A DNA stretch of 21,086 nucleotides from a virus. The notes below the pieces were generated by a model. That model was not told the origin of the DNA. It ran no database searches and saw nothing but the letters and a program-made list of their open reading frames with translations. The stretch lies in the IMG/VR virus record IMGVR_UViG_3300027996_000203, positions 1 through 21,086 of that record. The stretch is one strand, 5' to 3'. Positions 1,561 to 9,625 of the stretch are shown here, piece after piece; the stretch's first letter is position 1, and each line of letters begins with the position of its first letter. A program made the translations under genes and the position numbers.

Positions 1561-4500
1561 TTAGTCCCATGAAATAAGCAAGTCGGTATGTAGTCCAGCT
1601 GCACCTGCCGTGGTTGTATCCACTTCAAATTCGAACTTATCACCAGCCGAAAAGCTAGTAGGTTCATTCGTTAGTACAGCTGGGGTAGCGGCTGTAGCTG
1701 TGCTTGATTCACTTGCATCAATGGTTATTTTAGTATCAAAAATTGTTGTTCCGTTTTTATGTACATCTGAAACCAAGGAACTTCCAGATGTTGCTGTGGT
1801 AGAACCTGCGGCTACGCCATGTATTTTGCCGTTTGCTGGTGCATACCATGTAACCTTGACTCCTGTGCTTGCGTCTGCAGTTTCGTTTCCTAGTTTCCAA
1901 CTGTACCAGTTTTGAAGCAATGAGTTAGAATAAATAATTCTTACGCCCAAAAGTCTAGCGTCTTGAGATGCGGCTGTTGCTCCAGCAGTTGCCCTAGCAA
2001 CCTCGAAATGTAAAATGTCTCCGTCTTGAGGTGAGCCCCCAACCGTAATCGATTCGGCAGAAATTCTATGTATGTCTCCATTTGCTAGAATAGGATCGTC
2101 TAGAGTCGCTGTAGGAGCTGGGAAGGATATATCCCAAGCATCGTCATCACCACCAGCTTGAGCCGCCACTTCCCATTTGACGTTTTCGCCTACTGTTCCA
2201 CCGTCTACGGTCCAAAATATTTCTGCGTTTATAGTTCCACCGTCCCATTGAGGTGGCATCGCTACTTTTGCGTATAGAGTTTCTGCTGTTGCTACATTAT
2301 ACCAGTCAACAGAATTATTGGTTCCGTTGTCGGCACCTGTGCTTGCGTCAGCCTCTCCATCTTTAGCTAAAAACGCACCAGCGTCTATATAAATAGATGT
2401 TTCTGCTGTTTCTGCACTTCCCCCACCGCCTATTCCACCAGCTTCTATAGCATCCAAAGCATCTTTAACCGTAGCTCCTGTAACTGCTGAGTCGTTAGTT
2501 ATATCTGAAGCAGAATGAGAATGACCCGTAAGCGAATAACTTCCGCTATCTTGGTAAGCCATTGTTCCCAAGATTGGCTTATTGAGTATTTCTGCTTGAC
2601 CACTTGTGGCGTTCCAGTCGGCGTTAACACCACCTTGACCAGACGTAAGGTAACCAGCGTCATTTGTTAGGACCGATACGTTATCTGCAGGTTGAATAGA
2701 AGATCCAGCTAAGGAAATCCTGCTGTCGCCGCCTAAAACAACATCTGTCAAGCCAGCGTCAGAAAATTCATTAACATCGTATTCAGCTGCCGTGCCTAAA
2801 CCTATTATATCGCTATAGGAATGCAGGTGACTATTTAATGCAAAGTAACTAGTATCTTGAGATGCGGCTGTGCCAAGACCAGAAATATCAGAAGTCGTAT
2901 GTTGGTGACCAGTTACAGAAAAAGATCCAGTGTTTAAATCGGTTATTTCTGAAACTGTGTGTGTGTGACCTGTCGCAGAATATTCACCAGATTCATATTG
3001 AGCTATTGAGCCTATGGTCGGCTTGTTTAATATTTGCGAATCCCCGACAACAGAATTCCAGTCTGAGTTAACGTTAACGTTAGCATTGTCCTGTATACCT
3101 CCAAGTTTAATAATGTCAGAGGCATTTGTAAATTTATTATTAGAAGAGGAATCATCAAGATCGTCTGTATCGAGAACAACGACTCCTGTGTAAGAGTTTA
3201 CGGAGGAAACAGCATTAGAACCACTAGTCAAGTACCCAGCGTCATTAAGCAACAAAGAAACATTGTACCCGCTCTGAAGCGCTGAATCGGCAGTGTCTCC
3301 TTGCGTTGATGTAGCGAAACTACTTGAATCCTGCGACGAAGCTGTACCTAAAGTAGGTTTGTTTAGTATTTCTGAATCGCCACCAACAGAAGTCCAATCA
3401 GCATTGACATTTACCTCTGCCCCAGAAGCTATTGAATCTAATTTTAATTCGTCAGAAGTTGTAAAACTAGCGGTGGTATTTGTTAATACCGAATCAAGAG
3501 GTTGATAAGCCGCAGAAATCTGGCTAGAACTTAATATTGTAGCGTCAGTTACAACGTTATTTAAACCAGTAAGGGTATTTATATCTCCAGGCTGTATAGC
3601 GGAGTCTGCCAAAAGACCTTGCTCTGCAGTAGCGTAAGAGCCTGTTAAAGAGGATGATAGATTGTTTAGAGCTTCTGTGACATTTAATCCAGAAACGTTG
3701 GAATCATTTCTAACATCTGTAGATGGTTGTTTAGGGTAAGACGCTAAAACTTGTAAAGAACCGTTATTTTGTTGGCTTTTTAAGCATATGGCTATTGGTT
3801 GAGAGTAACCACTTGTAGGCTCAACTCCTGTAAGTAGCCCAAGACCATCTACATAGAGTATCTCTCCTTCGTTGAAAGCTGTAGTGTTTACATGATCTAA
3901 AACACCAGCTGTAATTATATTACCAAAAGATCCTTGAGGTATATCCTCTTCAGCTAAACCTATCGAAACGTCTGTCAATTGGTTAGACAAACTAACATTA
4001 ATAGCATTTTGTCCTACGTTGAAGCTGTCATATTTGACTGGTTGACCTTTAAGTAAGCTTTCGTCTGCTTTGACCTTGATATGTAACTGGTCAGCATGTA
4101 TTAGGTTACTTGCATCTGTTAGTGTTTTATTCGTCAACGCAATAGGACCATCAGCAAGGTCAGTAACATCACTCATCAAATGAGTGTGTATGGCTGGGGC
4201 AAAGTCAGTAATGTCTGATCCTGCCGCTGTGCCAGCATCACTTATATCACCCAAGAGATGCGTGTGGGAGGCGGTAGCGAAGTCTCCCGTATCGGCAGCA
4301 GCGGCAGTGCCAGCGTCGGTAATGTCAGCCAAAAAGTGTTGATGATTTACAAGAGCGTAACCAGATAAGTCTATACCATCGATAGCTGCTTGAGTAGCCG
4401 TGCTGACAGGCTTGTTTAAATCAGAAGTGTTATTTACATTCTCTAACCCAGCTACATCAGCCTGTGTCAAAAGAATGTCCCCAACTCTGCCAGCTACAGA

Positions 4501-4593
4501 GGTAACAGCGCTTGCAGCCAACTTATTCGAGACCTTTACGGTTCTAATTGGACTGTTTAAATTGGTTATTGTTACTGTTATCGGTTCAGCCAT
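1561..4593 (-). CDS. Large tail fibre with His-x-His repeats and beta-sandwich tip domains
   Basis: A 1010-residue modular fibre. Residues 30-70 (VAGRVGDILLTQADVAGLENV, then DLNKPVST) match the collar segment common in phage side fibres. His-x-His triplets follow at residues 84, 110 and 136, exactly 26 apart, and again at 543, 563, 589 and 691. In T4 gp37-type fibres such triplets coordinate iron along a trimer axis (known family property). A globular domain sits at about 155-290 (IHADQLHIKVKADESLLKGQ). Three copies of an ADW-x(9-10)-ILNKP-x-(L/I)-G unit occur near 398, 510 and 658, and NDAGYLTSG occurs twice. The last 270 residues look like two beta-sandwich tip domains (about 730-890 and 893-1010), probably receptor-binding. 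It is coupled to the preceding gene by TAATG. The gene is clearly richer in G+C than the glycan cassette or gpJ. Confidence 0.9.
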   Translation of the reverse strand: MAEPITVTITNLNSPIRTVKVSNKLAASAVTSVAGRVGDILLTQADVAGLENVNNTSDLNKPVSTATQAAIDGIDLSGYALVNHQHFLADITDAGTAAAADTGDFATASHTHLLGDISDAGTAAGSDITDFAPAIHTHLMSDVTDLADGPIALTNKTLTDASNLIHADQLHIKVKADESLLKGQPVKYDSFNVGQNAINVSLSNQLTDVSIGLAEEDIPQGSFGNIITAGVLDHVNTTAFNEGEILYVDGLGLLTGVEPTSGYSQPIAICLKSQQNNGSLQVLASYPKQPSTDVRNDSNVSGLNVTEALNNLSSSLTGSYATAEQGLLADSAIQPGDINTLTGLNNVVTDATILSSSQISAAYQPLDSVLTNTTASFTTSDELKLDSIASGAEVNVNADWTSVGGDSEILNKPTLGTASSQDSSSFATSTQGDTADSALQSGYNVSLLLNDAGYLTSGSNAVSSVNSYTGVVVLDTDDLDDSSSNNKFTNASDIIKLGGIQDNANVNVNSDWNSVVGDSQILNKPTIGSIAQYESGEYSATGHTHTVSEITDLNTGSFSVTGHQHTTSDISGLGTAASQDTSYFALNSHLHSYSDIIGLGTAAEYDVNEFSDAGLTDVVLGGDSRISLAGSSIQPADNVSVLTNDAGYLTSGQGGVNADWNATSGQAEILNKPILGTMAYQDSGSYSLTGHSHSASDITNDSAVTGATVKDALDAIEAGGIGGGGSAETAETSIYIDAGAFLAKDGEADASTGADNGTNNSVDWYNVATAETLYAKVAMPPQWDGGTINAEIFWTVDGGTVGENVKWEVAAQAGGDDDAWDISFPAPTATLDDPILANGDIHRISAESITVGGSPQDGDILHFEVARATAGATAASQDARLLGVRIIYSNSLLQNWYSWKLGNETADASTGVKVTWYAPANGKIHGVAAGSTTATSGSSLVSDVHKNGTTIFDTKITIDASESSTATAATPAVLTNEPTSFSAGDKFEFEVDTTTAGAAGLHTDLLISWD
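1961..1977. repeat. 17-base exact repeat inside the fibre gene (copy 1)
   Basis: TCTTGAGATGCGGCTGT occurs here and at 2855-2871 in the same orientation and frame, encoding a shared T-A-A-S-Q-D peptide. Such short direct repeats in fibre genes can promote recombination between modules; here it may simply reflect repeated protein units. Confidence 0.6.
2855..2871. repeat. 17-base exact repeat inside the fibre gene (copy 2)
   Basis: Second copy of the repeat at 1961-1977, same strand and frame, 894 bases away. The bases immediately outside both copies differ, so the identity is exactly 17 bases long. Confidence 0.6.
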
Positions 4594-4937
4594 TAGTCTG
4601 TTATGTGTCTGCTTGTTTTAAGATACATGGTTTCAGTATAGTAAACTGCGCCACTAGGCTCTACGAACTTAATGTCATATTGCAAGCTGTAATCAGCTGG
4701 CAACACTAATGTTTCGGCTGGTGTAGCAGAAATGCCTACAATACCGCTAACAAAGGACCCGCTATCAATAGCAAAAGATAAAAGCCCACTAGCACCTGGA
4801 GAATCCTTTAAATCGCTGCTAACGCCCCAACCACTTAGGTTTACAGCTATATCAGACTCATCTAAGCAAGTGATTGTTTGCTCAAAGGTGGACCCTCTTT
4901 TGATTTCTGTTAAAGTTTTTTCTAAATCACAAGACAT
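4593..4937 (-). CDS. Small BppU-like / Ig-like baseplate or fibre adaptor protein
   Basis: A 114-residue protein directly upstream of, and TAATG-coupled to, the large fibre gene. Residues 13-37 (KRGSTFEQTITCLDES, then NLSGW) fit the pattern 'k-x-G-d-t-f-x-x-t-i-t-w-x-d ... v-d-L-t-G-w' seen at the N-terminus of BppU-type baseplate proteins and related small phage proteins. The rest is beta-rich: LPADYSLQYDIKF, then a YYTETMYLKTSR strand. No signal peptide, membrane segment or catalytic motif is visible. A role as a small adaptor between the tail tip and the fibre is inferred from sequence pattern and position. It is the first gene after the glycan cassette, with 111 non-coding bases upstream, and so is likely to start its own transcript or be read through. 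Confidence 0.75.
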   Translation of the reverse strand: MSCDLEKTLTEIKRGSTFEQTITCLDESDIAVNLSGWGVSSDLKDSPGASGLLSFAIDSGSFVSGIVGISATPAETLVLPADYSLQYDIKFVEPSGAVYYTETMYLKTSRHITD

Positions 4938-4954
4938 CTTATATGTTAATACAC

Positions 4955-4981
4955 AAAATAGAAAGAAGCTGCGTCTTCTTT
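4955..4981 (-). terminator. Possible weak intrinsic terminator after the glycan cassette
   Basis: On the minus strand a perfect 7-base inverted repeat AAAGAAG / CTTCTTT (arms 4975-4981 and 4962-4968) encloses a 6-base loop and is followed by the T-rich run CTATTTT. It lies in the gap between the methyltransferase stop (5049) and the start at 4937, where a transcript end would be expected. The stem has only two G-C pairs, so it would be weak. The rest of the 4938-5048 gap holds no supportable gene. Confidence 0.3.
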
Positions 4982-5048: not shown

Positions 5049-5693
5049 TTACTCATCAATCTTTTTATATAACAAATTCTTTCTAAAGTAGTTTTCATTT
5101 ATCCAAATATCATTGCGTCTATCTGTTCGAATATATTTAAAATTTTGTTTTTCTAAAATAGATTTACACTTCTCCCAATTTTGGTGATAACTTTCAATAA
5201 TGATAATATAAACAGGAATGTCCCAGTTCATTGTTTCTAATACTTCATGTTCGCACCCCTCTACATCTATTGAAAATAAATCAATATACTGAATATCACC
5301 TTCTTTCAATATTTGATAGAATGGTTTTGCTGGAACTGTTATAATTGCTGAATTTTGATGCCACCGATTTTTAAAAGCCTCTGTCGTATTGCTTACGACA
5401 CTACTCACTAAAGGTTGATTAGAAACATACATATCAACTTGTGTTTTAATTTTCGATATAGCAAAGTTAAAGCACTTACTATCGGGGCGATTGAGTTTTA
5501 AGTGTTGGAATTGTTGTGGATCTGGTTCAATTAACACACCAGAAAATCCCAATGATTTTTCAAACATACATGTATTAGATTGTTTAATTCCATCCACCGC
5601 TCCCAATTCAACAAAAATACCATCATCTGTTTTTTGATTTATATAATTTTCGAAAACAAAAACATCTTCTTTATTTAGGCTATACGATTTCAT
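5049..5693 (-). CDS. FkbM-family SAM-dependent methyltransferase
   Basis: A 214-residue class I methyltransferase of the FkbM type, which normally O-methylates sugars or polyketides. The SAM-binding loop is FVELGAVDG at residues 27-35; the acidic end of strand 2 is LIEPDP at 54-59; the FkbM signature IDVEGCEHEVL is at 142-152. Length and motif spacing fit the family well and nothing seems missing. It is the last gene of the four-gene cassette and starts inside the stop of the glycosyltransferase gene (TAATG), so the two are translated together. Context suggests it methylates a hydroxyl group on the glycan built by its neighbours; the actual acceptor is not shown by the sequence. No signal peptide is present, so it acts in the cytoplasm. 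Confidence 0.88.
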   Translation of the reverse strand: MKSYSLNKEDVFVFENYINQKTDDGIFVELGAVDGIKQSNTCMFEKSLGFSGVLIEPDPQQFQHLKLNRPDSKCFNFAISKIKTQVDMYVSNQPLVSSVVSNTTEAFKNRWHQNSAIITVPAKPFYQILKEGDIQYIDLFSIDVEGCEHEVLETMNWDIPVYIIIIESYHQNWEKCKSILEKQNFKYIRTDRRNDIWINENYFRKNLLYKKIDE

Positions 5694-6679
5694 TATAGTT
5701 TGTTGTTAAATCCCTTTAGTGTTAATATCTCTGAGCAAATAAACTTATCGTCTACTCTCTCTAAATCAAAATCGTTTTTGTATATCTCTATACACTTAGC
5801 TAAGAGGAACTCTCCAAAGCCAAATCTTGCTGAGTGTTTAAAGAATGTATTATAGAAGTTTGCAATGTTTGCTTTCATACGAAGAACTCGTTCCTTATCC
5901 TCTAAGAGAAGCTCCACTTGCTCATGAATATATTCCATAGAATGCTCTCTTAAATCAAACCTCAACATATAATCATCTACATTCTCAAATATGTTTTCCC
6001 ATCCGTAATAATTCATAGACGAAATCATAACAGGTATGCATCCCGCCATAATAACATCGAAAAAACTGTTTGCAAAAGTTTTGTCTCCTCTTAGAACAAA
6101 GGATATATCAGATTTAGATAACTCTTCAATGTAATCTGTATATATATTTGGTGATGTTTCGTTTTGATAGACATTTGACGTAAACTTAATTATATTAAAT
6201 CTATCGTCATCAACAGTATTGTAAAAATCATAGAGCTCTTTTCGTGTTGCGTGTGAAGAGATACGACCACACCAATAAACTCTGTTATGAAAATCTGTAT
6301 TTTTAATATTATAATCTAGCCAGTATTGTGGCTTTTGTGATACTGAATTATGATTTGTAGGACCAGAGGGAGTTGATATAATATATGGCTTATTACAAAT
6401 ATCAAGAGGTGAAAAATAAAAATTCTGAAGGTCAGGCAGATCTATATTGTTATCAACACAAAAACCATTTCTTAAATTCCAACCAGTCCTAACTCTTTTA
6501 ACACCGTTTAATAAGTAAATATTATTTTTATTAAATTTTTCGCTCCCATCTCCCTTAATAACAGAGAAGTCTGCTTCATCCTCTGAATTAACAAACTTAA
6601 CCCCGTCGAAGGAAATGTTTCCAAAATAACGTTCTTTTACATTAGGCTTACAAAAAATCAATATCATAACCAAATTCAT
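5693..6679 (-). CDS. Exostosin-like (GT47-type) glycosyltransferase
   Basis: A 328-residue protein with the C-terminal signature of exostosin-like glycosyltransferases: VYWCGRISSHATRKEL at 134-149, then FVLRGD at 194-199 and DVIMAGCIPVMIS at 208-220. This matches the 'f-x-l-x-p-r-G-d ... f-x-d-x-x-x-a-G-c-I-P-V-x-i' pattern that binds the nucleotide sugar. Family members add hexose, hexuronic acid or hexosamine units to glycans; the sugar used here cannot be read. The first part (1-130) is unlike any domain I recognise. The start is uncertain: Met1 overlaps the upstream sulfotransferase gene by 32 bases, while Met5 (position 6667) would overlap by 20. No membrane anchor or signal peptide is apparent (MNLVMILIF is short), so a cytoplasmic enzyme is likely. 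Confidence 0.75.
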   Translation of the reverse strand: MNLVMILIFCKPNVKERYFGNISFDGVKFVNSEDEADFSVIKGDGSEKFNKNNIYLLNGVKRVRTGWNLRNGFCVDNNIDLPDLQNFYFSPLDICNKPYIISTPSGPTNHNSVSQKPQYWLDYNIKNTDFHNRVYWCGRISSHATRKELYDFYNTVDDDRFNIIKFTSNVYQNETSPNIYTDYIEELSKSDISFVLRGDKTFANSFFDVIMAGCIPVMISSMNYYGWENIFENVDDYMLRFDLREHSMEYIHEQVELLLEDKERVLRMKANIANFYNTFFKHSARFGFGEFLLAKCIEIYKNDFDLERVDDKFICSEILTLKGFNNKL

Positions 6680-7316
6680 CTATCACCCATTTTTCCTTTT
6701 CTGCAACCATATCAATAAGTTCTTCCGTATATAATTCTTCTTTAATTATCCTTTGATTGACTGATTTATTTTCGTGCAGAAGTTTTGGCGTTTGTGTAAT
6801 GCCGACGGATTCGCAAAACTCATTAAAATCATTTGATATATTTTCCAGTTGACCAATTTTATCCATCACTACATCACCATTGATGTCAATTAAATATTTT
6901 TGTTGTTGTGGATACTTCTCTATAATTGAAGTTAAAATTTGTAGGTCTGTTTTTCCATTAAAAAGATCAAGAGTATTCTTTTTTTGTTTTTGTCGATTGT
7001 CGTTCAGAGGTTCTTTGGTTTCCTGATAGATTTTTAATTTTGTTTTGTAGTAAGTAAAAAAAGAAAAATAACGATCCCAAGGATTTCTTACAACGCTGAA
7101 TTTGAAGTATCTGTTAATGTCCCAACCCTCTTCTTTAAAACCCTCAACAACCTCATTCATAGCGCTGTGATGACGGAATTTTATTTTACTAGAAATAGGC
7201 AAGGGAGTACCAATTACATCAATGACATTAAGCTTTCCCAAGGACTTTCTTAATGACTTAGTCCCAGTTTTTTGTATGTTTATTATTAGAAATTTATGTT
7301 TATGTGATATTAACAT
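6648..7316 (-). CDS. PAPS-dependent sulfotransferase family protein (second of two)
   Basis: A 222-residue sulfotransferase. The 5'-phosphosulfate-binding loop is INIQKTGTKSLRKSL at residues 12-26 and the 3'-phosphate-binding segment is FSVVRNPWDRYFSFF at 73-87; both are near-textbook for the Sulfotransfer_2 group. The C-terminus ends in EFGYDIDFL, the usual last strand of bacterial members. The reaction would be transfer of sulfate from PAPS to a hydroxyl or amino group, probably on a sugar given the neighbouring glycosyltransferase. It has no transmembrane anchor, unlike Golgi homologues. The gene overlaps its neighbours by 17 bases (upstream) and 32 bases (downstream), so it belongs to one translated unit. 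PAPS supply is not encoded in the window and would have to come from the host. Confidence 0.87.
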   Translation of the reverse strand: MLISHKHKFLIINIQKTGTKSLRKSLGKLNVIDVIGTPLPISSKIKFRHHSAMNEVVEGFKEEGWDINRYFKFSVVRNPWDRYFSFFTYYKTKLKIYQETKEPLNDNRQKQKKNTLDLFNGKTDLQILTSIIEKYPQQQKYLIDINGDVVMDKIGQLENISNDFNEFCESVGITQTPKLLHENKSVNQRIIKEELYTEELIDMVAEKEKWVIDEFGYDIDFL

Positions 7317-8139
7317 ATTTGTTATATATTTTATAATCCCATTTAGTTTGATTTAAGAAATGGTTTTTTGTTTCTTCGTCCAAGCTTTCGAATGGGTATT
7401 CTAATTTATCTTTTGTCGTATTCGTATTAATTCTTAAGCCGCGTGTTATTTTTTTATTTAAAAAGTCTTTTATGTCTAAACCTAAATTATAACACTCATT
7501 AAATATTTTCACGATAACATAATCAACATCAGAAATATCAGACACCAACATATTATCTAAGATATTACATGTTTGTTCATAATGATCTTGAGTAATAATT
7601 TCTGGATCTGGGACATTAAGCAAGTTATGAATTAACCAAGATCCTTGTAACTGAGGAGAATTTAGATGTTCAATAAATGTATTACTATCATAAGCTCCGT
7701 GTGATGGTTCGTGAGCAGACTGTGATGATTGAAGATAACTAAAAAGAGAAAGTGTTCTGCCGTAAGGTTCTCTTAAGAACATAAATTCGTAAGGCTTTAG
7801 ATTGCGAGGAAGGTTTTTATAAATGTAGTCCTTATAACTACCGAAGCTTCTAGCACATATCTCTACGAAATACAGGTTTAAATCATCAATATTAAAATCA
7901 TCGTAATCTACAAATAAAGTTTCGTGGGAACCCCCTCTTTTATATTTATCACTTAAAGGCGTGTTTTTTGCAGAACATGCCATGCGATACAATATATACT
8001 CACCTTTCTTTACTATTATGTTTAATATAGTGTCATTATCAAGCAATCTTAGTCTAACCAATTGAAATGCTAGATTGTAAGCATAAGTCCCAGCGTTCTT
8101 GGGAATATGAAAAAACACTGGCAACCTAATATCCTTCAT
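7300..8139 (-). CDS. PAPS-dependent sulfotransferase family protein (first of two)
   Basis: A 279-residue sulfotransferase-fold protein, first gene of the cassette. The PAPS loop is FFHIPKNAGTYAYNL at residues 9-23, where the 'hIPKnAGT' form is typical of the Sulfotransfer_2 and heparan/galactose sulfotransferase-like group. The 3'-phosphate segment is FMFLREPYGRTLSLF at 119-133, with the expected Arg and a later Ser. The gap between the two motifs is about 35 residues longer than in the neighbouring sulfotransferase, so the two are not a recent duplication and probably have different acceptors. The start at 8139 follows a TATAAT box by only five bases and has no Shine-Dalgarno. The next gene overlaps its end by 17 bases. 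Confidence 0.82.
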   Translation of the reverse strand: MKDIRLPVFFHIPKNAGTYAYNLAFQLVRLRLLDNDTILNIIVKKGEYILYRMACSAKNTPLSDKYKRGGSHETLFVDYDDFNIDDLNLYFVEICARSFGSYKDYIYKNLPRNLKPYEFMFLREPYGRTLSLFSYLQSSQSAHEPSHGAYDSNTFIEHLNSPQLQGSWLIHNLLNVPDPEIITQDHYEQTCNILDNMLVSDISDVDYVIVKIFNECYNLGLDIKDFLNKKITRGLRINTNTTKDKLEYPFESLDEETKNHFLNQTKWDYKIYNKYVNIT

Positions 8140-8144
8140 ACGAT

Positions 8145-8150
8145 ATTATA
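8145..8150 (-). promoter_or_regulatory. Candidate -10 box for the glycan cassette
   Basis: A perfect TATAAT on the minus strand lies five bases upstream of the first cassette gene (ATG at 8139) and just after the terminator of the preceding gene, where a promoter is needed. No good -35 is seen: the best placed hexamers at 17-19 bases are weak (for example TTGTAG). If used, transcription would begin at or within a base or two of the ATG. In A/T-rich DNA such a box can also occur by chance. Confidence 0.35.
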
Positions 8151-8169: not shown

Positions 8170-8220
8170 CTACAAAATAAAAAGCCCCGCATAAAGCGAG
8201 GCTTCAATATAGTTTTGTAG
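8170..8220 (-). terminator. Intrinsic terminator after the 162-residue gene, with an outer inverted repeat
   Basis: On the minus strand AAGCCTCGC (8204-8196), a loop TTTAT and GCGGGGCTT (8190-8182) form a nine-pair stem with one G-U pair, followed directly by TTTATTTT: a standard Rho-independent terminator. It sits eight bases past the stop at 8228. A second perfect 8-base inverted repeat, TTTTGTAG (8213-8220) and CTACAAAA (8170-8177), encloses it, so the terminator is the inner arm of a longer hairpin. It separates the small structural genes from the glycan cassette. Confidence 0.85.
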
Positions 8221-8227
8221 GTATTTC

Positions 8228-8716
8228 TTACTCTACCAATGATGCGGCGAGGAATATCGCGTCAACCTCCTCATCCGTAAGACCTAACGCTGCTTGCATT
8301 GTTGCTATACGAACATTGTCGCGCCTAAAAGTGGAAGCATGTTGCCACCAATCATACATTTTCTTTTTATCAACGACTTCCTGATCTGTAGTTTCAGGCA
8401 TTGCCGCAATAATTTCGTCAACTGTATCATGAAGACCCTCGTCAATCAAGGCATCTCTCATTTGGATGTTTGTAACTTCTTCTATAGACGGTTCGACAGT
8501 AGTCTCTAGTTTCCAACCATATGATTCGGCTGTAAGTTCTCTAACGTAATACTGACCTTCTGGTGCGTCGTCTGGCATTGGAAGGTTCTCGACATAATCG
8601 TAACCATCTGGCGTAGGTGGCGCGGCAGCATCTCTAGTCAAGGATGATGGCAAACCATTAACACTTGAGTATTCGAGCTTTAATGGGCTTAGTTTAATTA
8701 ATTGATAAGTTTTCAT
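8228..8716 (-). CDS. Phage tail-associated protein with conserved C-terminal Trp-Trp/Arg-Arg segment
   Basis: A 162-residue protein. The first 75 residues (with YVENLPMPDDAPEGQYYVRE) resemble the beta-rich start of short phage proteins encoded with fibres. The C-terminal part (residues 85-160) has two helical motifs found together in many small phage proteins: RDALIDEGLHDTVDEIIAAM, and then WWQHASTFRRDNVRIATMQA running into ALGLTDEEVDAIFLAA. That second motif ('w-w-x-x-a-t-x-F-r-R ... a-L-G-l-t-d-e-x-i-D-a-l-F') recurs beside tail-fibre genes, but its molecular job is not known to me. It is the last gene of the right-hand minus-strand unit and is followed by a strong terminator. A poly-A stretch rather than a Shine-Dalgarno precedes the start. 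Confidence 0.75.
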   Translation of the reverse strand: MKTYQLIKLSPLKLEYSSVNGLPSSLTRDAAAPPTPDGYDYVENLPMPDDAPEGQYYVRELTAESYGWKLETTVEPSIEEVTNIQMRDALIDEGLHDTVDEIIAAMPETTDQEVVDKKKMYDWWQHASTFRRDNVRIATMQAALGLTDEEVDAIFLAASLVE

Positions 8717-8737: not shown

Positions 8738-9163
8738 TTATGTTACATCACTCATATACAAGTACTGATCTGATCCATCATCATACCAACATACAGTGCC
8801 AACACCGCTCCCAGAAGCGGTAATAGAAGCTATATCAGCAAGATCGCCAACCAATACAGTTTGGCTGGATGAGAAAGTCCAAGCGGCAGTGTTGTCTTGT
8901 TTGACAACCACCAATCCAGAATCCCCAGAAGTGGAATTGGTAATAGAGAAACCAGTTATATCTTCTGTAAGAGTGGTAGCTGCGCTATAGCCGCCTGTAA
9001 CGTCCAAGGTGAGAACACCAGCTGACGAGCTAATTGATTGTTGAGTGAAATGAGGTTCGATTGAACCAAGTCTGTTTTCTGCATCAGTAGCATTAGCATT
9101 GAAGATATTCCTAAATGTTAAATGCGTTGCTCCGCTGACTGGTATGAAATTTTGTTGTGACAT
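8738..9163 (-). CDS. Small fibre-like structural protein, paralogue B
   Basis: A 141-residue protein whose last 100 residues are shared with the next gene upstream: LTEDITGFSITN, GDSG, QDNTAAWTFSSS, GDLADIASITASG, then W-Y-x-D-G. This Thr/Ser/Gly-rich pattern with regular short strands is typical of phage fibre or head-decoration beta-domains. The N-terminal 40 residues (SQQNFIPVSGATHLTFRNIF, then NANATDAENRLGSIE) are unrelated to the paralogue and may be the part that attaches to another virion protein. An AAGGA motif lies 11 bases upstream of ATG 9163, one of the few Shine-Dalgarno-like sites in the window. Exact virion location is not shown by the sequence. Confidence 0.75.
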   Translation of the reverse strand: MSQQNFIPVSGATHLTFRNIFNANATDAENRLGSIEPHFTQQSISSSAGVLTLDVTGGYSAATTLTEDITGFSITNSTSGDSGLVVVKQDNTAAWTFSSSQTVLVGDLADIASITASGSGVGTVCWYDDGSDQYLYMSDVT

Positions 9164-9193: not shown

Positions 9194-9625
9194 TTATGTG
9201 ACACTACTTACAAAAAGATAGTTCTGTGTTCCGTCATTATACCAACCAATACCACCAGCTCCAATGCCAGAAGCTGTGATTGACGCTATGTCAGATAAGT
9301 CACCCGCTAAAACCTCATAGCTACTTGAAAAGGTCCAAGCTGCTGTATTATCCTGATCTACAACTATAAAGCCAGAGTCTCCAGTAGTTGTATTTGTAAT
9401 TGAAAATCCAGTTACATCCTCAGTTAAGGTCAAGGATGCATTACCTCCAAGGGATGCGTCTAAAGTAAGCAAGGAAGAGGAGGAACTGATTGAGTTTTGT
9501 TTACTTTTCGTTTCAAGACCCAAAACTCTTGGATATGAATCATCAAAATTAGCATTAATCCCACTCAACACATCTTCGTGAGTTGTTACCCCTGTTTCTA
9601 TTTCTATATGGTATGGTGAAGTCAT
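9194..9625 (-). CDS. Small fibre-like structural protein, paralogue A
   Basis: A 143-residue protein sharing its C-terminal 100 residues with the neighbouring gene at 8738-9163 (LTEDVTGFSITN, GDSGFIVV, QDNTAAWTFSSS, GDLSDIASITASG, ending in YLFVSSVT). The N-terminus differs: TSPYHIEIETGVTTHEDVLS, then GINANF. The pair looks like an old tandem duplication in which the first 40 residues were replaced or diverged fast. It follows the gene at 9629-9958 after three bases (TAA-AAA-ATG), so translation is probably coupled. A structural role in fibres or the virion surface is inferred from composition, position and resemblance to phage fibre beta-domains; there is no catalytic motif. Confidence 0.75.
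   Translation of the reverse strand: MTSPYHIEIETGVTTHEDVLSGINANFDDSYPRVLGLETKSKQNSISSSSSLLTLDASLGGNASLTLTEDVTGFSITNTTTGDSGFIVVDQDNTAAWTFSSSYEVLAGDLSDIASITASGIGAGGIGWYNDGTQNYLFVSSVT

Follow-up and report, generated by a model that had tools for sequence, protein, structure and literature searches.

What do four overlapping genes in the tail-fibre locus of a marine phage make, and where does their product go? The genes lie on the minus strand at 5049-8139 of a window that is the whole of IMG/VR record IMGVR_UViG_3300027996_000203 (21,086 bases, uncultured marine phage). This window is a genome fragment, and the remaining genome of its phage was inferred from relatives. An original prediction, made from the sequence alone, read the genes as a self-contained sulfated-glycan cassette with the layout of a moron, acting on the virion or on the host surface. 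The cassette is here interpreted as an exchangeable module for glycan sulfation in virulent marine phages, with its product most probably placed on a virion protein; the probability of this reading is about 0.5.

The four open reading frames (ORFs) are intact and lie between flank genes at 8228-8716 and 4593-4937. They encode a carbohydrate-type sulfotransferase assigned from motifs and predicted fold (ST1, 7300-8139, 279 aa), a sulfotransferase of the Sulfotransfer_2 family (ST2, 6648-7316, 222 aa), an exostosin-type glycosyltransferase (Exo, 5693-6679, 328 aa) and an O-methyltransferase of the FkbM family (FkbM, 5049-5693, 214 aa), with overlaps of 17 nt (ST1/ST2), 32 nt (ST2/Exo) and 1 nt (Exo/FkbM). 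ST2 matched PF03567 at 2.4e-9 (38.2 bits, cut-off 22) and phrog_3347, 'Galactose-3-O-sulfotransferase', at 2.6e-15. Its MLISHKHKF start and RNPWxRY motif are conserved among relatives, and its motifs for 3'-phosphoadenosine 5'-phosphosulfate (PAPS) are KTGT and RNPWxRY...S, the window having Q where P usually precedes K. Exo matched PF03016 (Exostosin_GT47) at 4e-9 (36.7 bits, cut-off 33.4) and, weakly, the profiles of EXT1/EXT2 (E 0.03-0.08); relatives 41-65% identical were found in three other phages. FkbM passed the curated cut-offs of both PF05050 (Methyltransf_21, 7.7e-19, 68.9 bits, cut-off 22.7) and NCBIfam TIGR01444 (50.5 bits, cut-off 37.7), which places it among the FkbM methyltransferases. 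A sequence search of the PDB gave no match for ST1, ST2 or FkbM. The gene content, coordinates and overlaps of the original prediction were confirmed by the ORFs, by Pfam and by the motifs and fold of ST1.

ST1 itself had no Pfam, PHROG or NCBIfam match, and 3 of 14 relatives match Sulfotransfer_2. It carries the motifs HIPKNAGT (5'-phosphosulfate binding, 5'-PSB) and LRE...S (3'-phosphate binding, 3'-PB), with K14, R123 and S131 invariant in 14 relatives; sulfotransferases have their two PAPS-binding motifs arranged in this way. An AlphaFold2 model (pLDDT 89.9) was used for fold searches. The best PDB fold was heparan-sulfate 2-O-sulfotransferase with adenosine 3',5'-bisphosphate (PAP) and a heptasaccharide (E 7.4e-5, probability 1.00, TM 0.52), followed by heparan-sulfate 6-O-sulfotransferase (E 6e-4), with overall TM-scores of only 0.4-0.5 and 13-15% identity to the heparan-sulfate enzymes. 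Cytosolic and tyrosyl-protein sulfotransferases ranked below these. The closest predicted viral structures were annotated 'Sulfotransferase family' and came from uncultured Caudovirales phages and Megaviridae. By motif and predicted fold, ST1 is a sulfotransferase.

Two other roles for such proteins were weighed against these matches. The sulfotransferases might directly sulfate tyrosines of fibre proteins, with the glycosyltransferase and the methyltransferase acting separately; the placement beside fibre genes would suit this, and the general fold is also that of tyrosylprotein sulfotransferases (rank 31, E 0.046). Their matches were, however, far weaker than those of the heparan-sulfate sulfotransferases, and ST1 fuses to sugar transferases (see below), which makes tyrosine sulfation improbable. 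Alternatively, the P-loop proteins might take part in hypermodification of the phage DNA by added groups. Several phages glycosylate DNA, and ST2 gave a weak, sub-threshold match to a model of 5-hydroxymethyldeoxyuridine (5-hmdU) DNA kinase 2 (E 0.053). Against this, a 5'-PSB motif (HIPKNAGT/KTGT) stands in place of a kinase Walker A, the Sulfotransfer_2 match is far stronger and no base-modifying gene was noticed near the cassette, so that a role in DNA modification is very improbable.

A substrate of sugar type is indicated by the fusions and partners of ST1, which is joined to glycosyltransferases in three ways. The first is a fucosyltransferase-like (FucT) C-terminal domain carrying an H-R-GD motif (L002, L003, L006 and L009); its model (pLDDT 70, moderate) matched the alpha-1,6-fucosyltransferases FUT8 and NodZ with probability 1.00. 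In the second, ST1 is fused to a homologue of Exo (L123, 1305-3317), which directly ties two members of the window cassette. In the third, a DXD-type putative transferase lies N-terminal to ST1 in one chain (L014, L016, L069, L160 and L163). Two putative transferase families (GTc2 and GTc11) had neither a Pfam match nor a PDB sequence match and were recognised by DYD/ExD motifs only. Of the 45 distinct ST1 genes, ten form a fusion with a known or putative transferase; when transferases within 3 kb are counted as well the number rises to 37, and in 26 an ST2-family gene lies within that distance. Conversely, ST1 was found close by in all 14 distinct phages with an ST2 at least 40% identical to that of the window, and ST1 and ST2 distances were correlated (Mantel r 0.46, 0/5,000 permutations). 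With the three kinds of fusion, and with ST1 beside every close ST2, assignment as a glycan-sulfation module is well supported.

Phage sulfotransferases are commonly counted among the auxiliary metabolic genes, with unclear function (PMC10580990; PMC8290583), and for marine phages, too, they are listed with the function stated to be unclear (PMC10580990). Accordingly, the substrates of ST1 and ST2 might be small molecules, lipids or metabolites of the host, their linkage to glycan genes being incidental. The three fusion kinds, the 37 of 45 ST1 genes near a transferase, and an ST1 fold that resembles polysaccharide sulfotransferases more than cytosolic SULTs all speak against such a metabolic role, which is considered unlikely.

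ST1 was found at about 40 distinct viral loci and hardly anywhere outside viruses. A search of 84,980 prokaryote species genomes with short patterns, which diverged members can escape, gave only four relatives, all in metagenome-assembled bins. One of these contigs (L121) is clearly phage, with a transferase-ST1-transferase-methyltransferase set beside tail-fibre genes. The 50,697 deposited phage records held no relative of ST1, Exo or the ST1-FucT fusion; weak relatives of ST2 and FkbM exist among them. As judged from these searches, ST1 is a nearly virus-restricted and largely undescribed viral sulfotransferase family.

The four genes were found together in an independent record, L006, which has ST1, ST2, Exo and FkbM in the window's order at 50, 52, 64 and 73% identity, the same 32-nt ST2/Exo and 1-nt Exo/FkbM junctions, and the same downstream flank gene (95%). 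Since order and junctions recur in an independent phage, the four genes are treated as one unit. The 17-nt ST1/ST2 overlap was also seen in the unrelated contigs L025, L039 and L040. The common pathway proposed earlier is supported by L006, by the ST1-glycosyltransferase fusions and by the pairing of ST1 with ST2. A peptide-pattern scan of viral contigs for FkbM returned nothing despite the 73% relative in L006; such scans overlook relatives, so absences from them are weak.

The cassette occupies a slot with a fixed downstream edge, the conserved leader TTTGTGTATTA...ATATAAG (4938-4960, minus strand) ahead of the 114-aa downstream flank gene (4593-4937, minus strand), which is 81-96% identical in six other phages. 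The leader is near identical in the other records of the group and recognisable in L003. Slots were compared in the seven records with this flank gene (the window and six further distinct phages). All seven hold 1-8 glycan genes, a sulfotransferase is always among them, and no slot was empty. The window carries ST1-ST2-Exo-FkbM, and L006 carries Sulf3-[ST1+FucT]-ST2-Exo-FkbM. L009 has Sulf3-MT-[ST1+FucT]-ST2-MT-MT-putative GT-RmlD-like (MT, methyltransferase; GT, glycosyltransferase), L003 has [ST1+FucT]-WcbI-like-ST2, and L047, L049 and L050 have a single Sulfotransfer_3 gene each. The complete four-gene set is thus confined to the window and L006, and enzymes are swapped in the other relatives. 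In the nearest relative, L018 (97% in the upstream flank gene), ST1 begins at the same place and the contig then ends. Besides the leader, several records share a block just after the cassette; such shared flanks would permit cassette exchange by recombination. A second lineage behaves in the same way: between shared neighbours, L004 carries ST1-MT-ST2 and L013 only ST1. The original prediction had looked to relatives for the four genes either together or absent as a block; they are together in L006, and instead of a missing block the contents are exchanged.

On the upstream side, the slot follows a phrog_6034-like gene of the fibre operon (8228-8716, minus strand, 55-97% identical in relatives). 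This operon is closed by an intrinsic terminator (stem 8181-8205, minus strand, 10 pairs and a T run) of -23 kcal/mol and fold z -5.9, which is conserved in L018. A TATAAT at 8145-8150 (minus strand), also conserved in L018, is a weak candidate -10 box recognised by its letters only. It lies only 5 nt from the ST1 ATG, no -35 was found for it, and promoter-like matches in the region were below shuffled expectation. An 11/12 sigma-70-like match was found ahead of the cassette in L006 and L050. The hairpin at 4955-4981 (minus strand) was rejected as a downstream terminator, being no better than chance (z -1.1, 29/200 shuffles folding as well). The GC content of the cassette is 30.7%, against 36.7% for the window and 43.0% for the adjacent fibre gene, deviating as in morons. 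Of the features of a moron, the upstream terminator and the deviant composition are present and the TATAAT is present but weak; the downstream hairpin is not supported, nor is a dispensable block, the slot never being empty in the seven records.

From these observations we infer the activities, the reaction order, the acceptor and the benefit of the cassette as follows. One mRNA, cut off from the upstream fibre operon by the terminator, would give four soluble cytoplasmic enzymes. The exostosin-type transferase would add a sugar, ST1 and ST2 would sulfate it at one or two positions with host PAPS as the donor, and FkbM would add an O-methyl group, the product being a short, strongly anionic glycan. 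Its assembly would most probably take place on a virion protein itself (of fibre, tail or capsid) ahead of release; there the glycan could serve as a shield or alter receptor choice. Relatives would trade transferases and decorators through the shared flanks, always retaining a sulfotransferase.

No gene for synthesis of PAPS or of a nucleotide sugar lies within the four-gene block. PAPS would come from the host. A full-length protein like GDP-mannose 4,6-dehydratase (GMD) is encoded in 5/5 larger records of the window's group; these proteins score 314-329 bits against the gmd model, whose equivalog cut-off is 415, with the next-best model at 128-131 in the two tested. The GMD-like enzyme would give a route towards GDP-fucose or GDP-rhamnose, for which a second enzyme was not identified with confidence. 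With no donor synthesis in the block and the GMD-like gene elsewhere in the group genomes, the original prediction was right in kind and overstated in the word 'self-contained'; the locus is better described as an exchangeable sulfation slot. A phage supply of PAPS through an APS-kinase-like domain near ST1 in some T4-like relatives is not claimed, as the match is partial (~85 residues); the domain is fused to a nucleotidyltransferase-like domain and lies far below the apsK equivalog cut-off. These P-loop fusions (L037, 3425-4228; L021, 4705-5532) could serve PAPS supply or NAD metabolism.

Instead of a virion protein, the cassette could modify a surface glycan of the host or its cytoplasmic precursor (capsule, LPS or a teichoic-like polymer) during infection and so block adsorption of other phages with the same receptor. 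The slot does sit among receptor-binding genes, one of which encodes a Laminin_G lectin domain; WcbI-like capsule-type genes accompany sulfotransferases in some relatives, the related record G001 has a second cluster with LicD-, GT2- and GT32-like genes, and a host flippase may be borrowed by the phage. However, 13 large phage records contained no initiating phosphosugar transferase (PF02397, WbaP-type), no flippase (PF01943, Wzx) and no integrase (PF00589), the same searches being positive in 9, 13 and 14 of 14 cellular controls. A surface polysaccharide cluster of Wzx/Wzy type, with initiating transferase and flippase, was thus not seen in these records, nor was a membrane-bound step, and with an integrase in 0/13 the benefit would be limited to one lytic cycle. 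No membrane-like segment was seen in any of 29 proteins from the cassettes, so the enzymes look soluble. Without initiator, flippase or membrane segments there is no sign that these phages make and export a surface polymer of their own.

Position points the same way. In the T4-like record L033, ST1-GT-FucT-ST2-sulfatase is embedded between the portal (5e-186) and head maturation protease (1.5e-78) genes, with late genes. Cassettes lie beside fibre genes in the unrelated phages L145 and L121, so that sugar-modifying genes are placed with virion structural genes in these, in L033 and in the window. Precedents for glycan machinery of this kind exist. For the gp35-gp38 block of Corndog (Cluster O mycobacteriophages), with an O-methyltransferase and a glycosyltransferase, the authors proposed that its products modify the capsid (PMC4351075). 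This block is likewise compact, groups sugar transferases with a methyltransferase in a virion-structure region, and stands at the portal/head protease position of the L033 cassette. It differs in its transferase families and in its head locus, as against the fibre locus of the window, and no sulfotransferase is mentioned in PMC4351075. Chlorovirus PBCV-1 encodes the machinery (GMD, GMER, A064R and A075L) with which its capsid protein is glycosylated in the cytoplasm (PMC5408694, PMC11571054). A virus-encoded GMD or GMD-like enzyme towards 6-deoxy-sugar donors, an exostosin-like transferase and a methyltransferase are shared with the present phages; PBCV-1 is, however, a eukaryotic virus, and no sulfotransferase is mentioned in the review PMC5408694.

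With the soluble enzymes, the position of the L033 cassette and the Corndog and PBCV-1 precedents, virion decoration comes out as most likely, and the host surface comes next, as a possible but doubtful target. Attachment to virion proteins is the most probable outcome, favoured by the genomic context and by the lack of a flippase, initiating transferase and integrase. Several points weigh on the other side. The records are fragments, so gene absences do not amount to proof, and the host's own lipid carrier and flippase could serve the phage, weakening the argument from missing export. Exo may be of the GT47 or of a GT114-like family; A075L of PBCV-1 was annotated as an exostosin (PF03016) and proved to be GT114 (PMC11571054). 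The large sulfotransferase clusters of the T4-like L037 and L040 do not adjoin structural genes in the stretches read.

Cellular systems offer likenesses of other kinds. The rhizobial enzymes NodZ, NoeE and NoeI (PMC4881576) combine fucosyl transfer, sulfation and methylation on one decorated sugar; the NodZ fold is matched by the FucT domain of relatives, and NoeE is weakly matched by Sulf3. Their product is a bacterial secreted lipo-oligosaccharide signal and the window has no NodZ-like domain, so that the likeness is one of function type and not of close homology. Heparan-sulfate 2-O-sulfotransferase and the exostosins, which sulfate and extend heparan sulfate, resemble ST1 in its fold and Exo in its family match, respectively, at the low identity given above and a TM-score of about 0.5; the phage proteins look soluble, and a glycosaminoglycan is not implied. 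The single Sulfotransfer_3/Sulfotransfer_2 genes of marine phages (PMC10580990; phrog_3347, matched by ST2) belong to the same superfamily but were reported alone, not in a cassette with ST1 and transferases. As the original prediction had supposed, text searches of the openly licensed literature turned up sulfotransferases listed in phages and no description of a phage system with this four-gene set.

A sulfated glycan on these virions would be, to our knowledge, the first on record for bacteriophages. The locus gives phage sulfotransferases a concrete setting, with linked pairs, transferase fusions, a fixed slot among virion genes and alternative enzyme sets in sister phages, and leads to a testable claim, that some phages bear sulfated sugars on their particles. 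If true, this would bear on receptor choice, on particle charge and stability in sea water, and on escape from binding proteins of the host or environment, and with ST1 a new family of enzymes would join those that produce sulfated sugars. That the slot is kept and its enzymes are swapped hints that sulfated sugars matter to marine phages. More tentatively, ST1, interchangeable transferases and ST2 may build sulfated, methylated oligosaccharide coats on unrelated marine phages, diversified by cassette exchange at fixed slots.

The surroundings of the slot agree with the tail-fibre setting given in the original prediction. Fibre-type genes run on the minus strand. A fibre-region protein has a Laminin_G/ConA-like lectin domain (2-970), a likely glycan-binding part, and a long fibre protein with tail-repeat motifs adjoins the slot (1561-4593, minus strand; PF12789 at 2.2e-5, segments 60-90% identical in relatives). 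The downstream flank gene (4593-4937) is distantly similar to phrog_1084 and also to a family for assembly of L-shaped tail fibres. The plus strand carries lambda-like tail tip genes in the order L-K-I-J. The first encodes minor tail protein L (PF05100, 9.8e-42); the K-like product has a JAB domain, and the I-like one is followed by a J-like protein of 1,701 aa that contains Phage-tail_3. Two fibre-region proteins encoded in tandem at 8738-9163 and 9194-9625 are paralogues with 59% identity. The terminase of the phage group is at most 28% identical to deposited phages among the matches listed, and a 375-aa protein near it, in the virion gene region, had no match in deposited phages.

Weak hints to the host came from the scarcity of Shine-Dalgarno-like leaders (26/215 genes of the group; 8 in shuffles) and from two of the four ST1-bearing metagenome-assembled contigs, which were binned with Bacteroidota. 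The contig with the ST1-Exo fusion (L123) was binned with a Diapherotrites archaeon. The cassette of L033 (5852-10375) is followed by a phage-borne sulfatase (PF00884, 1e-51). Large T4-like marine contigs (L037, L040, L034 and L022) have sulfotransferase islands, in which between 6 and 11 Sulfotransfer_2 genes per contig are accompanied by GT61-, WcbI- and GT2-like genes. The phage group of the window also has a second glycan cluster near ribonucleotide-reductase-like genes (L129, 14111-18278; L126, 9227-14287), comprising GT2, GT4, GT32-type, LicD, sulfotransferase and GMD-like genes. Genes near the slot (L049, 11169-11429; L050, 11409-11978; L004, 12538-13116) include, by eye, an M15-peptidase-like fragment (L049) and Tat-like N-termini with RRKFLKL (L004), possibly of an unusual exported endolysin.

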